NCBI GenBank assembly: GCA_001784175.1
Contig: MFPR01000017.1
Span: 150,975-214,974, forward strand
Length of the DNA: 64,000 nt
From: Candidatus Lindowbacteria bacterium RIFCSPLOWO2_12_FULL_62_27
GTDB taxonomy: Bacteria; Lindowbacteria; 2-12-FULL-62-27
Reading direction: 5' to 3'
Part shown: in pieces, positions 35,794 through 41,118 of the stretch
Layout: the number at the start of each line of letters is the position of its first letter
Position numbering within the stretch: position 1 is the stretch's first letter
Notes under the pieces: model-generated
What the model was told of the DNA's origin: nothing
The model's input: the letters and a program-made list of their open reading frames with translations, nothing else
Database searches by the model: none
Translations under genes and position numbers: made by a program

Positions 35794-36663
35794 TCAGCGG
35801 CTGCTGTAGCGGCGTTCCAGCTCGTAAAACCGGTCGAGGTCCACCATGGCGTGGAAATCGGACCATGGAAGAAGCATGTCCAAATGATCGCGCGTGGTGC
35901 CCTTCTCGCGCAGGAGCCGGAAGACGTCGGAATAGGCGCGGGCCGCCGCGTAGAGGGCGCTCAGCGGATGGACGACGAGATCGAATCCGATCTCGTGGAG
36001 TTCCTCGGGCGTCTGGAGCGGCGTTTTGCCTTTCTCGAGCATGTTGGCGACTTTGACGCCCGGGACCTCCCGGCCGATCGTTCTCATCTCGTCGACCGAG
36101 TGCGGCGCCTCGATGAAGGTCGCGTCCGCGCCCATCTCGTGCGCGCGCTGCGCCCGCCGGATGGCCTCGTCGAGGCCGAGCGGCTCGCGGGCGTCGGTGC
36201 GGGCGACGATGAAGAAATCGCCGGTCGCGCGGCCGTCGATGGCCGCCTGCAGTTTCGATTCGAATTCCTCCGGCGGGATGACTTCCTTGCCGGCCATGTG
36301 CCCGCATTTTTTGGGCCAGACCTGGTCTTCGAGAAACATGCCCGCAACCCCGGCTTGCTGGAGGCCGCGGACGGTGTGAATCACGTTCAGCGCGTTGCCG
36401 TATCCGGTATCGGCGTCGACGATGAGCGGCGTCGACGGTTCGGCTGCGCAGACCCGCCGCGCGACGTCGATCATTTCTGTGGCGGTGAGGAGCCCGAAAT
36501 CGGGCGAGGCGAGGCGCGTGGCCGACATGCTGTATCCGGACGTGAAGATGACCTCAAATCCGGCGCGGACGGCGATCCGGGCGGTGAGGGGATCGAACAC
36601 GCCGGGCATGAGAAGCGGCTGCCCGGTCTGGAGTCTCTGCCGGATTCGCTCCGCGAGCGTCAT
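35794..36663 (-). CDS. Isocitrate lyase/PEP mutase superfamily enzyme
   Basis: A 289-residue TIM-barrel protein. Catalytic signatures are D-A-D-T-G-Y-G-N (metal site), F-L-E-D-Q-V-W-P-K-K-C-G-H-M with the reactive Cys, and V-A-R-T-D-A-R. The K-K-C-G-H loop places it with the lyases (methylisocitrate lyase, 2,3-dimethylmalate lyase, oxaloacetate decarboxylase-like) rather than PEP mutase. The substrate would be a 2-hydroxy dicarboxylate. It stands alone on the minus strand, convergent with the LMF-like gene. No prpC or prpD is present, so a methylcitrate cycle cannot be inferred. Confidence 0.85.
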   Translation of the reverse strand: MTLAERIRQRLQTGQPLLMPGVFDPLTARIAVRAGFEVIFTSGYSMSATRLASPDFGLLTATEMIDVARRVCAAEPSTPLIVDADTGYGNALNVIHTVRGLQQAGVAGMFLEDQVWPKKCGHMAGKEVIPPEEFESKLQAAIDGRATGDFFIVARTDAREPLGLDEAIRRAQRAHEMGADATFIEAPHSVDEMRTIGREVPGVKVANMLEKGKTPLQTPEELHEIGFDLVVHPLSALYAAARAYSDVFRLLREKGTTRDHLDMLLPWSDFHAMVDLDRFYELERRYSSR

Positions 36664-36722: not shown

Positions 36723-37106
36723 ATGGAGAGACGAACTTATTCGCGCACTGTGATTTTCGACGGCGACTGCGGGTTTTGCCGGCGGTCGATCCGGATCGGC
36801 CGGGCGCTCGACTGGTTCGGCCGGATCTGGTGGCGGGCGAGACTCGAGCCCGGGGTTCGGGAGGAATTTCCGCAGCTCAGCGACGAGGAAACCCGGAACC
36901 GGATGGTGTCGATCCTGCCGGACGGGCGGACCTTCGGTGGCTTTTACGCCGTTCGCGACATCCTGGTCCGCCTGCCGCTCACCGCGTTGCCGGCGCTCCT
37001 CCTGTACATCCCCGGCGTATCGATCGTCGGCGTGCCGGTCTACCAATGGATCGCGCGGAACCGCCACCGGTTCGGTGGGCGTCAAGACGATCAGTGCGCT
37101 ATGTGA
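36723..37106 (+). CDS. DCC-family (DUF393) thiol-disulfide oxidoreductase-like protein
   Basis: A 127-residue thioredoxin-like protein with the name-giving motif F-D-G-D-C-G-F-C at 12-19, a hydrophobic stretch near 80-98 (L-P-A-L-L-L-Y-I-P-G), and the C-terminal Y-Q-W-I-A-R-N-R-H-R-F-G. DCC proteins are thought to reduce disulfides, often near the membrane and sometimes fused to HTTM domains. The 3' end overlaps the convergent luxC-like gene by 8 bp. Confidence 0.88.
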   Translation: MERRTYSRTVIFDGDCGFCRRSIRIGRALDWFGRIWWRARLEPGVREEFPQLSDEETRNRMVSILPDGRTFGGFYAVRDILVRLPLTALPALLLYIPGVSIVGVPVYQWIARNRHRFGGRQDDQCAM

Positions 37107-38298
37107 CCAGGAGGCTGCGCAGGCACGGGACACCGGCGTTGCGCCACGTCAGCGGCGGGCGCTGCATGAGGCCCGGCGGGCAGAAGTAACTCGCGCCGAG
37201 TCTTCGCAGGAGCGGCTCGAGGATTTCGAGGTCGTCCACAGGCGCGGCGCCCACGCCCTGGAGGCGGCCGTCCTGCGGCTGCAGCAGGGCCGCAACTTCG
37301 GCAAGTGATCGAACCGGTTTGACGAGAATCGTGCGGCCCAGCGGAGAGGGGTGAAAGATTGGCGCGGTGTCGATCACGATTGTGTAGGCGAGCCGGTCGC
37401 CGAAGAAACAGGGCGCGCCGTGAAAGGCGTAGTCTCCGCGAAAATTCCTGATCTCACCCGCCTGCGCCACATCCATGCGGCCCGCCGGCAGGGATTCGGC
37501 GAGAAGCTGCATCTCCCCGGCGAGCATTTCGCAAAACCGCGCCGGCGCGACCGGCGCGCCGGCCGCGATAAAGGCGCAGTGTGGCGAGAGGCAGCCGGAC
37601 TGGTCGTACATCGCGACGTCGATCGCCAATCCCTTCGCCGCGTCCAGCGCGCCCGCCTCATTTTGCAGGGCGCCGTCTCTGATCACTGCCACGCTGACTT
37701 TGTGTCCATGCCCGACGACGCGCGCGCAGGGCGGCGCCGAAGCGCGGATCGCTGTGATGGTTTCGTCCGATCCATAGGCCACGACCGTGTCGGCGTTCAA
37801 GGCAGCGATATCCGAATGATCAAAATATCCGGCCTCGACGGCCGCGCCGACGTCGGGATCGACGGACCGGAGGGCGTCGGTGAAGATCGGCAGGATCGTT
37901 TTCTCATGGGACGAGCATTTGACCACGATCGGAGACTTGACGAGGAGCGAATAGACGACGCCGTTGACCGCCGGTTGAAAGATGGCGCCCGCCGCGATCA
38001 GAAGCGTCGCGCCGGGCGACCGGATCGCCGGGTCGTCGGCCGCGTCGTCGCTGCCGAGATCGTCGATGAGGACCCGGCGCATCTCGCCCGCCGTGATCTC
38101 GGAGAAGGTCCAGTCCAACGCCCGCTCGATCATCGGCGCGCTGAATCCGGACTGCGCCGCGCCCTCCCGCACGGCCCGGTGCCTCAGCGCAGACCCGGGC
38201 GCCAACAGTTCGCCCGCCGCAGCCTCAAGGCTCGCCATGATCCGGCGCACCGGAACCTGACGCAACCGCGCGCGCGCGGCCTCCCGACGTCCGGTCAA
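37099..38298 (-). CDS. LuxC-like acyl-CoA/acyl-protein reductase
   Basis: A 399-residue aldehyde-dehydrogenase-fold protein of the LuxC family. LuxC proteins take an acyl group from LuxE or CoA onto a Cys and reduce it with NADPH to an aldehyde. The active-site region is A-M-Y-D-Q-S-G-C-L-S-P-H-C with nucleophile Cys236; V-V-K-C-S-S-H-E-K precedes it and C-F-F-G-D-R-L-A-Y follows. It is the last gene of a tight four-gene minus-strand cassette and starts 2 bp after the LuxE-like stop. No luxA, luxB or luxD is present, so the aldehyde serves something other than light production. Confidence 0.88.
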   Translation of the reverse strand: MTGRREAARARLRQVPVRRIMASLEAAAGELLAPGSALRHRAVREGAAQSGFSAPMIERALDWTFSEITAGEMRRVLIDDLGSDDAADDPAIRSPGATLLIAAGAIFQPAVNGVVYSLLVKSPIVVKCSSHEKTILPIFTDALRSVDPDVGAAVEAGYFDHSDIAALNADTVVAYGSDETITAIRASAPPCARVVGHGHKVSVAVIRDGALQNEAGALDAAKGLAIDVAMYDQSGCLSPHCAFIAAGAPVAPARFCEMLAGEMQLLAESLPAGRMDVAQAGEIRNFRGDYAFHGAPCFFGDRLAYTIVIDTAPIFHPSPLGRTILVKPVRSLAEVAALLQPQDGRLQGVGAAPVDDLEILEPLLRRLGASYFCPPGLMQRPPLTWRNAGVPCLRSLLVT

Positions 38299-38300
38299 GT

Positions 38301-39404
38301 TTACTTGGGCAGCATCTCGTCGATGAGGAGGGAACAGCCGCGGGGATCGGCGCCCTTGGCCCGGCCGATGATCCTGAATCCGCCGCCTTCCTGGACGCCG
38401 ATGTCCTCGGTCTGAATCGAGACGACCGACCCGCGGTTGGCGAGGTCCGTCACGCGGATGAGTCCGGGCACGCCGGGCGCCGCCGGCTCGTCGGTCACCG
38501 GATCGATGATCCTCACGCGCACCCAGGGCGGCGGAACCTTGACCGCCGGCCCGGCCGATCCGGTTTGGATGAGCGTCCGGAGGGAGTCGTCGTAGATCTG
38601 TGAGGAAAGTTCCGTCATTCCGTACTCGTTGACGACCCAGGCCGGCGGGATCCCGAGGATGTCCCGGGCCAGTTCGTAGAAACGCTCGCGCGTGACCTCC
38701 CGGGATTTCCCCTTGTATCCGCCGGTTTCCATGATCCGGCTTCCGGCCGGCAGCGCGAATTTTATTTGTTTTTCGGCGAGCGCGTCAAAGAGGTGGACAA
38801 AGGCGAATGCCGGTCCCATCAGAATCCTCGGATCGCCGGTTTCGACCGACAGGCCCAGGTCCTCCACCAGCGCGTCGACGTTGAGCTTTCGGTCGTGGAT
38901 GTACCATTCCGCGTTGACGGCGAAGGCGTCCGCCGCGATGCGGCACATGTAGACGAGGCTTGAGTGCGGCGCCTCCTCGATCGTCGGCAGCAGTATACGC
39001 ATCGGGAGGCTCGCGCCGTCCGGCAGGACATGCCGGCCGAAATTGGGGATGGCCGACTCGTCGTAGAGCATCAGCGTATCGAGATGGTGTTTGCCGGGTT
39101 TGCCGGTGGTCGTTCCCGACGTTTCAAACACGCGGACGGTCTTGGCGGGCGAGAAGCTGGCGAGGACCGCCGCCCTGAAGGCGGTCGTGGGCGCGGCCGG
39201 GATTTTTTCCCACGAGGAGACCTGAGCCGGAGTCGTCCGCCGCAGCATGCAGAACATCCGGTACGGCGTGTTCTGGGCGAACTGGTGCGCAAAGAGTTCC
39301 ACTGCCAGGCCGTTGAACTGTTCCTCGCCGACCTCTTCCGAAAGGGACTGATGGATGAAGTCGACGATTTTCCGGTCCAGGGCCTGCGCGAAGGCGCCGT
39401 TCAT
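38301..39404 (-). CDS. LuxE-like acyl-protein synthetase
   Basis: A 367-residue member of the LuxE/PaaK-like adenylating family, read from ATG 39404 (the frame extends 54 codons upstream into the neighbour). The AMP-binding P-loop is F-E-T-S-G-T-T-T-G-K-P-G at 93-104. E-T-G-G-Y-K-G-K-S-R follows, then N-E-Y-G-M-T-E-L-S-S-Q, the adenylate motif. LuxE activates a free carboxylic acid with ATP and hands the acyl group to LuxC. It sits between the QueF-like gene (10 bp gap) and luxC (2 bp gap). The chain length or nature of the acid is unknown. Confidence 0.9.
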   Translation of the reverse strand: MNGAFAQALDRKIVDFIHQSLSEEVGEEQFNGLAVELFAHQFAQNTPYRMFCMLRRTTPAQVSSWEKIPAAPTTAFRAAVLASFSPAKTVRVFETSGTTTGKPGKHHLDTLMLYDESAIPNFGRHVLPDGASLPMRILLPTIEEAPHSSLVYMCRIAADAFAVNAEWYIHDRKLNVDALVEDLGLSVETGDPRILMGPAFAFVHLFDALAEKQIKFALPAGSRIMETGGYKGKSREVTRERFYELARDILGIPPAWVVNEYGMTELSSQIYDDSLRTLIQTGSAGPAVKVPPPWVRVRIIDPVTDEPAAPGVPGLIRVTDLANRGSVVSIQTEDIGVQEGGGFRIIGRAKGADPRGCSLLIDEMLPK

Positions 39405-39414
39405 GGGCGGCGGG

Positions 39415-39744
39415 TCAGTATCCTTCCTCGATCTTGCACCATGCGGGAATGTGGGATGCCGTCTGGATGTCGATTTCAACGCGGAGCGCCGTGGGCTGCG
39501 CGATTTCCTTGACCGTATCGAAAATCTCCCGGGCCAGCGCCTCGGAGGACGTCTCGGCCTCGTCAAAGCCCCGGATGAAGTCTCCGAAGGACAGATATTC
39601 GATCAGCAGCGCGCCCGGCCGGTACGTCACGATGACTTCGCCGGCAAACCGCTCGTCGGTGACGGAACAGATGGTCGAAAAGGCCGACCGCAGCGCGACT
39701 TCGGATATCCCATGAACGTTGGGAAGCGTGTCGAAAGCGGACAT
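39415..39744 (-). CDS. QueF-like T-fold protein (divergent)
   Basis: A 109-residue single-domain protein resembling type I QueF, the NADPH-dependent nitrile reductase that converts preQ0 to preQ1. The QueF-type C-x-V-T motif is I-C-S-V-T with Cys26, followed by V-T-Y-R-P-G-A-L-L-I-E-Y-L-S-F and a C-terminal strand V-E-I-D-I-Q. Relative to Bacillus QueF (numbering from memory: Cys55, Asp62, His96, Glu97) the Cys and Glu (Cys26, Glu68) are kept, but the Asp position is Phe33 and the His position is Ser67. Queuosine synthesis is therefore doubtful and a new T-fold activity is possible. It lies 6 bp after the aminotransferase gene. Confidence 0.6.
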   Translation of the reverse strand: MSAFDTLPNVHGISEVALRSAFSTICSVTDERFAGEVIVTYRPGALLIEYLSFGDFIRGFDEAETSSEALAREIFDTVKEIAQPTALRVEIDIQTASHIPAWCKIEEGY

Positions 39745-39750
39745 TCGGAC

Positions 39751-41118
39751 TCAACCCTCCCGGATTTTTATTTCTGTCAGGGCATCTTCCAAGACACCGA
39801 CGCAAAAGTCAATCTCGCGTCGGCCGACCACCAGCGGCGGGGAGAGCGAAATGACATTCTGATGGATGCCCCCGCCGAGGATCATGAGCCGCCGGCGGAG
39901 CGCTTCGACGACCACGCGGCTGCACCGTTCGGGATCGGGAGTTTTCGTCCGAAGGTCCTTGACCAGCTCGATCCCCGCGATGAGCCCCTGCCCGCGAATG
40001 TCGCCGACCCCCCGCAGCCCGCCGAGCCGGCGGGCCAGTTCGGCGCGCAAATAGGACCCCATCCGCTCCGCCCGGCTGTGCAGCGAGCGCCTTATATATA
40101 TGGAGAGAGCCGCGAGTCCCATGGCACAGCCGAGGGGGTTGCCCAAGAAGGTGCTGGTGTGGATCGCCTCGCCGGCCGACCGGCCCCAGCGGCGCATGAC
40201 GGCCGGCGTGCCGATGCAGGCGGACATGGGAAACCCGCCGGTCATGCCCTTTCCGAGGCACAGGATGTCCGGCGTCACCCGTTCGTGTTCGCAGGCGAAC
40301 ATGCGGCCGGTGCGCGCAAACCCCGTGTAGATCTCGTCGGCGATCAGGAGGATCCGTTCGCGCCGGCAAAACCGGGCAAGCCTCGCCAGCCAGCCGGGCG
40401 GCGGCACAATCTCGCCGCCCCTGCCCTGGATAGGCTCAACGATCACGGCTGAAAACCGCCGGGCGCCGCCCGCCGCGCGAATTTTCCGTGCGGCGCCGTC
40501 GAGGCAGGCGATGCCGCAGCCGGGATACGCGAGTTTCAGCGGGCAGCGGTAGCAGTAGGGGTAATCGACGAAGAGCGTTTTTTTTGAAATCCTTCCGGCG
40601 AAGGGCGCTCGAAACATGCGCTGGCCGGTGACCGAGAGCGCGCCGTAGGAGAGTCCGTGGTAGCTGCCGGAGAACGCTACGAGCGCATCGCGTCCGGGCC
40701 GCGCGATCTGCGCCGTCTTGATGGCCGATTCGACGGCGTCCGATCCGTTCTGGGAGAGGATGGTTTGCGAAAGCGCGCCGGGCGCGGCGCCGGCGAGGGC
40801 CGCCAGGAATCGGGATTTGATTTCCGGCGGATGAACGTCGCCCATACCGTGAATCATGAGTCGCGTCTGGCGGCGAAGGGCGGCGATGAGCGCGGGATGG
40901 CCATGCCCAAGATTCGCGACCGCAAACGCGGCCGTCATGTCGACGTAGCGCCGTCCCCGGACGTCCCAGACGAAACACCCGGACGCTTTCCGCCAGAAGA
41001 CGGGGAAGTCTCCGGAAAAGTAAGTGACCTCGGGACACTCATGGGCCCTCAGGGCCCGTACGAGATCCTGCACATGTTTGTCCACAGAACCTTTTCGCTT
41101 GGCGGGCATCTCCGGCAT
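39751..41118 (-). CDS. Class III PLP-dependent aminotransferase
   Basis: A 455-residue protein of the ornithine/GABA/diamine aminotransferase class. Seen are G-R-R-Y-V-D-M-T-A near 55, S-Q-N-G-S-D-A-V-E-S-A, S-Y-H-G, the Cys-rich Y-P-Y-C-Y-R-C-P typical of one GABA-aminotransferase branch, I-A-D-E-I-Y-T-G-F-A-R-T-G, and the PLP lysine in L-G-K-G-M-T-G-G-F-P. Members convert terminal aldehydes to primary amines or the reverse. As first gene of the cassette with LuxE/LuxC it could aminate the aldehyde they make. GGAAGGG lies 10 nt before the ATG. Confidence 0.9.
   Translation of the reverse strand: MPEMPAKRKGSVDKHVQDLVRALRAHECPEVTYFSGDFPVFWRKASGCFVWDVRGRRYVDMTAAFAVANLGHGHPALIAALRRQTRLMIHGMGDVHPPEIKSRFLAALAGAAPGALSQTILSQNGSDAVESAIKTAQIARPGRDALVAFSGSYHGLSYGALSVTGQRMFRAPFAGRISKKTLFVDYPYCYRCPLKLAYPGCGIACLDGAARKIRAAGGARRFSAVIVEPIQGRGGEIVPPPGWLARLARFCRRERILLIADEIYTGFARTGRMFACEHERVTPDILCLGKGMTGGFPMSACIGTPAVMRRWGRSAGEAIHTSTFLGNPLGCAMGLAALSIYIRRSLHSRAERMGSYLRAELARRLGGLRGVGDIRGQGLIAGIELVKDLRTKTPDPERCSRVVVEALRRRLMILGGGIHQNVISLSPPLVVGRREIDFCVGVLEDALTEIKIREG

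Follow-up and report, generated by a model that had tools for sequence, protein, structure and literature searches.

A class III aminotransferase/LuxE/LuxC gene cassette as a probable nitrile-free route to the queuosine precursor preQ1

Introduction

In the described route to preQ1, the precursor of queuosine, QueD and QueE act upstream of 7-carboxy-7-deazaguanine (CDG), QueC and QueF take CDG to preQ0 and then to preQ1, and TGT and QueA act downstream. Reconstructions of the pathway regard both QueC and QueF as indispensable, and a genome that lacks them is put down as a salvager (gene sets in PMC6593275 and PMC11130926). Here we analyse a stretch of 64,000 nucleotides (the window) on contig C17 of the 4.39 Mb genome of Candidatus Lindowbacteria bacterium RIFCSPLOWO2_12_FULL_62_27, which carries a cassette of four minus-strand open reading frames (ORFs) encoding, in this order, a class III aminotransferase, a QueF-like T-fold protein, LuxE and LuxC. 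Comparative genomics makes it very probable that the aminotransferase, LuxE and LuxC provide a bypass of QueC and QueF. The proposed route shares with the described branch its start, its end and the enzymes on either side; it differs in passing through no nitrile, with carboxylate activation, thioester reduction and transamination in place of the four-electron nitrile reduction.

Other described systems resemble parts of the cassette. The LuxC and LuxE of the bioluminescence fatty acid reductase (7xc6) are homologous to the window proteins, with the acyl-acceptor and catalytic cysteines kept, whereas the window proteins score far under the equivalog cut-offs, have an aminotransferase or que genes as neighbours and would act on a heteroaromatic acid. 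Class III aminotransferases of the GABA (4-aminobutyrate), putrescine and PigE types share the fold and the pyridoxal phosphate (PLP) lysine with the window enzyme, which nevertheless falls under every NCBIfam cut-off among the matches listed and is linked to LuxE and LuxC. QueF itself is defined by Cys55, Asp62, Glu97 and the NADPH-binding QueF motif E(S/L)K(S/A)hK(L/Y)(Y/F/W), and sequences missing even one of these are classed as non-QueF (PMC5372742). Finally, the crenarchaeal archaeosine synthase QueF-L (5jyx; PMC5485725) is, like the window's QueF-like protein, a short single T-fold with a Cys and, as is probable for the window protein, no nitrile reductase. It keeps a general acid/base Asp as well as that Cys, whereas the window protein is without it and lies within a bacterial aminotransferase/LuxE/LuxC cassette.

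Results

The four ORFs are separated by gaps of only 6, 10 and 2 bp (Table 1), and the positions and gaps given by an initial annotation, made from the letters alone, agree with them exactly. The gene order is kept in all three genomes of the Lindowbacteria-type family examined (the window host and two mates), where the window proteins are 69-70% (aminotransferase), 76-78% (QueF-like), 53-59% (LuxE) and 48-49% (LuxC) identical to those of the mates. Because both other family genomes share the order, the adjacency is not due to chance. The concern raised in the initial annotation, that the four genes might be neighbours in no relative, is thereby removed, and the aminotransferase orthologue did not turn out to be a lone housekeeping enzyme. 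Outside this family, adjacency of the aminotransferase and LuxE, mostly with LuxC, recurs across many families: all three genes are adjacent in G267, G357, G128, G375 and G248, and the aminotransferase and LuxE are adjacent in G111, G069 and G210.

In some genomes the cassette genes are linked to que genes. Five overlapping ORFs of G127 read aminotransferase-LuxE-LuxC-QueD-QueE, all backed by Pfam and NCBIfam except the short LuxE, which is matched solely by our custom LuxE profile. In G174 a QueE that passes the TIGR04349 cut-off is followed by the aminotransferase and then by a single 878-aa LuxE-LuxC fusion protein, while LuxC lies 3.6 kb from QueD-QueE in G332 and QueD lies 1 kb from LuxE in G334. 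By a rough estimate, linkages of this kind (4 of 24 within 10 kb) have a chance probability of about 0.002.

The catalytic residues of the core proteins are conserved. The C-terminal acylated cysteine of LuxE, presumed from the Lux system to be C357, is kept in 27 of 28 aligned LuxEs, the catalytic cysteine of LuxC (C236) in all full-length members, and the PLP lysine (K290) in 13 of 13 cassette aminotransferases. The window proteins thus carry the features of their superfamilies, PF04443 with a C-terminal acyl cysteine for LuxE and PF05893 with a catalytic cysteine for LuxC. The closest solved chains are the LuxE and the LuxC of 7xc6, and the nearest solved relatives of the aminotransferase are GABA/putrescine aminotransferases. 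None of the four cassette proteins reaches an NCBIfam equivalog cut-off: LuxE scores 58 bits against 550 for the long-chain fatty acid ligase NF052244, LuxC 59.6 bits against 750 for the long-chain acyl reductase NF052251, and the QueF-like protein 27.6 bits against 86.9 for QueF (TIGR03139). The functions of fatty acid ligase, fatty acyl reductase and preQ1 synthase are therefore without sequence support. PADLOC gave no match.

If LuxE, LuxC and the aminotransferase act on CDG, genomes with QueD, QueE, TGT and QueA yet without QueC and QueF are to be expected, and the Lindowbacteria-type genomes fit this expectation. They encode QueD and QueE, and TGT and QueA are adjacent, save that QueA was not detected in the 88% complete G001. 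A QueF search found none besides the QueF-like copy of the cassette, and the sole QueC-like protein, at 51-65 bits, stays below the 150-bit cut-off and is a better match to CBASS Cap9 than to QueC. The predicted gene content is thus present save for this divergent protein. Outside the family, G014 has QueD, QueE, QueA, LuxE and LuxC, and QueC and QueF were not found in it.

We then surveyed 386 bacterial genomes with a LuxE profile built from four sequences and with profiles of QueF and QueA; QueC and QueE profiles were run on 80 of these, namely all 28 LuxE-positive genomes and 52 controls. Genuine QueC was set at more than 130 bits, so that the three Lindowbacteria-type genomes, G357 (113 bits) and G127 (38 bits) count as QueC-negative, and G041 was counted as QueC-positive from two fragments. 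LuxE orthologues of at least 220 bits occur in 19 of the 386 genomes, and QueE is present in 28 of 28 LuxE-positive ones. Among the 60 QueE-positive genomes, 24 have LuxE and no QueC, four have both, 31 have QueC and no LuxE, and one has neither (Fisher p=1.3e-11, a guide only, like the other p values, as the genomes are neither a random nor a phylogeny-corrected sample). The exclusion holds when the four discovery genomes are left out (Fisher p=2.5e-10) and when each family beyond the discovery families is counted once, with controls not collapsed (p=3e-9). The 24 LuxE-positive, QueC-negative genomes come from 19 families, and canonical QueF is absent from every one. Likewise, among QueA-positive genomes canonical QueF is found in 2 of 18 with strong LuxE versus 187 of 315 of the rest (p=5e-5). 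The genome with neither gene, G051, has a weak QueE match and no QueF; either a gene was missed or yet another route is used.

These results bear on what the cassette makes. The initial annotation read it as an acid-to-aldehyde-to-amine sequence, which stands, and guessed at an aminated lipid, a long-chain amine or an unspecified small molecule as product, which gives way to CDG and preQ1 in the light of comparative genomics. A lipid or other non-deazaguanine amine, with queuosine precursors salvaged, would accord with the classical action of LuxE and LuxC on fatty acids, with the PF04443 and PF05893 matches and with the plasmid LuxE-LuxC pairs found beside transporters and a short-chain dehydrogenase/reductase (SDR). 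We regard it as very unlikely, as it leaves unexplained the QueE of all 28 LuxE-positive genomes, the loss of QueC in 24 and the operons with QueD and QueE, genes that salvagers do not need. Alternatively, the cassette may act on CDG but yield some other 7-deazaguanine, be it a metabolite or a DNA base, with salvaged preQ1 serving tRNA; 7-deazaguanines have many fates, and the QueF-like protein retains Cys and Glu and not the reductase residues. This we consider highly improbable, since QueA is present in all 18 LuxE-strong genomes other than G001, which is 88% complete, since acid, aldehyde and amine chemistry on CDG gives exactly preQ1, the TGT/QueA substrate, and since a complete bypass leads one to expect just such a joint loss of QueC and QueF.

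The QueF-like protein adds a further element in the Lindowbacteria-type family. Its C26 and E68 correspond to the catalytic Cys55 and the substrate-anchoring Glu97 of QueF and are invariant in an alignment with 19 canonical QueFs. At the place of the general acid Asp62 stands F33, a phenylalanine in both family orthologues too, and the QueF motif position reads EYLSFGDF, with E49 and S52 kept and both NADPH-motif lysines lost. With the catalytic Asp and these lysines gone, the protein is probably no nitrile reductase, and the reductive or amidine-type step first suggested for it is weakened. Nor does it show the Cys and Asp pair of QueF-L archaeosine synthases, as it has the Cys without the Asp. 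An AF2 model (mean predicted local distance difference test, pLDDT, 94.5) has its best PDB matches in two thioimide structures, 4f8b of QueF and 5jyx of the archaeosine synthase QueF-L, the root mean square deviation from the latter being about 1.3 angstrom, and the protein probably still binds a 7-deazaguanine. These retained features moved our hypothesis from a lipid amine to deazaguanine chemistry.

Superposition on QueF, together with the presence of the QueF-like and QueC-like proteins in all three Lindowbacteria-type genomes, is also what one would see if the QueF-like protein were a working preQ0 reductase supplied by the QueC-like protein, with LuxE, LuxC and the aminotransferase as unrelated neighbours. 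We hold this to be extremely improbable, given that Asp62 and the motif lysines are missing, which by published criteria makes such sequences non-QueF (PMC5372742), that the QueC-like protein is closer to Cap9 and that most other families with aminotransferase, LuxE and LuxC have neither protein. A peptide pattern for the wider QueF-like family, run over 84,980 genomes, matched just the two family mates, and in a profile search of the 386 genomes the best 27 other matches were canonical QueFs, nearly all with the full Cys-Asp motif. These searches make the QueF-like protein an addition specific to this lineage and no part of the cassette core, its relatives being confined to the family mates. 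Nor can it be indispensable for the proposed chemistry, because most genomes with the genes of the route lack it.

Related loci and neighbouring genes are listed in Table 1. Plasmid matches in Priestia megaterium and Azospirillum ramasamyi (LuxE-LuxC-ABC transporter-SDR) and in Pantoea dispersa (LuxE-LuxC-SDR only) were rejected as instances of the same cassette, their arrangement being different; they look like systems in which a small acid, imported, is reduced to an alcohol, and a thiamine-pyrimidine-like acid is our guess at the substrate. A phage origin of the cassette was dropped, as searches of viral contigs confirmed no LuxE relative and phage records gave a single weak partial match. 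In G014 the stop of LuxE and the start of the next gene overlap; that gene encodes a class I AspC/TyrB-like aminotransferase, a possible non-homologous stand-in for the class III enzyme. In G119 LuxC-LuxE are followed by FAD/NAD oxidoreductase, aconitase-like and citramalate synthase-like genes, and this locus resembles a biosynthetic cluster of another kind. A phosphoenolpyruvate (PEP) mutase/methylisocitrate lyase-like gene, accompanied by lipase maturation factor and major facilitator superfamily (MFS) genes, lies close to the cassette both in the window and in G002, which may be plain synteny.

Table 1. Coordinates of the cassette genes and of related or neighbouring loci
Feature	Location	Strand	Details
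Class III PLP aminotransferase	39751..41118	minus	455 aa, ATG start; PF00202 320 bits; PLP lysine K290
QueF-like single T-fold protein	39415..39744	minus	109 aa, ATG start; PF14489 QueF 30 bits (cut-off 27.3)
LuxE-type acyl adenylase/acyl-protein synthetase	38301..39404	minus	367 aa, ATG start; PF04443 83 bits; presumed C-terminal acyl-acceptor Cys C357
LuxC-type acyl-thioester reductase	37099..38298	minus	399 aa, TTG start; PF05893 158 bits; catalytic Cys C236
Divergent QueC-like protein (three Lindowbacteria-type genomes and G357)	L024 1462-2139; L022 797-1489; L023 1474-2139; L168 1532-2200		Best solved match CBASS Cap9
Plasmid LuxE-LuxC-ABC transporter-SDR or LuxE-LuxC-SDR loci	L179 7989-13825; L181 8058-13911; L180 7926-11273		
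LuxE and class I aminotransferase genes of G014	L016 17288-19001		
LuxC-LuxE locus of G119	L122 7080-10849		
PEP mutase/methylisocitrate lyase-like gene, window	35794-36663		
PEP mutase/methylisocitrate lyase-like gene, G002	L015 10460-11344		

Discussion

The gene content, the kept adjacency, the catalytic residues, the exclusion of QueC and QueF in QueE-positive genomes and the operons with QueD and QueE together argue strongly for a nitrile-free bypass to preQ1. We infer all the enzymatic steps of the route, with their order and cofactors. QueD and QueE, whose genes lie in other parts of the genome, would make CDG, and LuxE would adenylate its carboxylate, giving a thioester on the C-terminal Cys of LuxE, on the Cys of the QueF-like protein, or on both. 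LuxC would take the acyl group on its own Cys and, by NAD(P)H reduction, release 7-formyl-7-deazaguanine, which the class III aminotransferase would convert to preQ1, and TGT and QueA would then act with preQ1 on tRNA. In Lindowbacteria the QueF-like T-fold may, as a guess, hold a 7-deazaguanine intermediate through its kept Cys and Glu. A more specific version, in which a former nitrile reductase has turned into a dedicated covalent carrier that receives the CDG thioester from LuxE on its Cys, anchors it by Glu and presents it for reduction by LuxC, the aldehyde being passed to the aminotransferase, seems to us rather unlikely.

Several observations weigh against the bypass. The window cassette adjoins no que gene, a scan of the window and of 14 related loci for preQ1 riboswitches turned up none, and the three Lindowbacteria-type genomes and G357 carry the divergent QueC-like protein. 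Several LuxE-positive, QueC-negative genomes have no aminotransferase or LuxC beside LuxE, so that there these steps would be encoded elsewhere or done by other enzymes. Four LuxE-positive genomes (G257, G097, G119 and G310) retain QueC, and they do not form one clade in the LuxE tree. The LuxEs of G257 and G097 lie far outside on a separate long branch, and their LuxC has ACSS versus GC[LMV]S in most others. The LuxEs of G119 and G310, in contrast, are nested inside the clade and coexist with QueC and QueF; the METGG motif is altered in both, and the LuxE of G310 has lost the acyl Cys. Finally, LuxE relatives 39-43% identical occur in the plasmid LuxE-LuxC-ABC-SDR cassettes, so that the LuxE clade is not bound to CDG alone and presumably serves more than one substrate, the others presumably being small acids.

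The initial annotation knew of no described pathway with this set of genes, and we found none either. A full-text search of openly licensed papers, which may miss subscription work, returned no paper linking queuosine with LuxE and no mention of 7-formyl-7-deazaguanine; judged by that literature, a preQ1 route through the aminotransferase, LuxE and LuxC is most likely previously undescribed.

In conclusion, if the proposed bypass is true, it would mean new chemistry on 7-deazaguanines, LuxE and LuxC would gain a mainstream role outside bioluminescence, and bacteria of at least 19 families in our sample would have been misread as unable to make preQ1.

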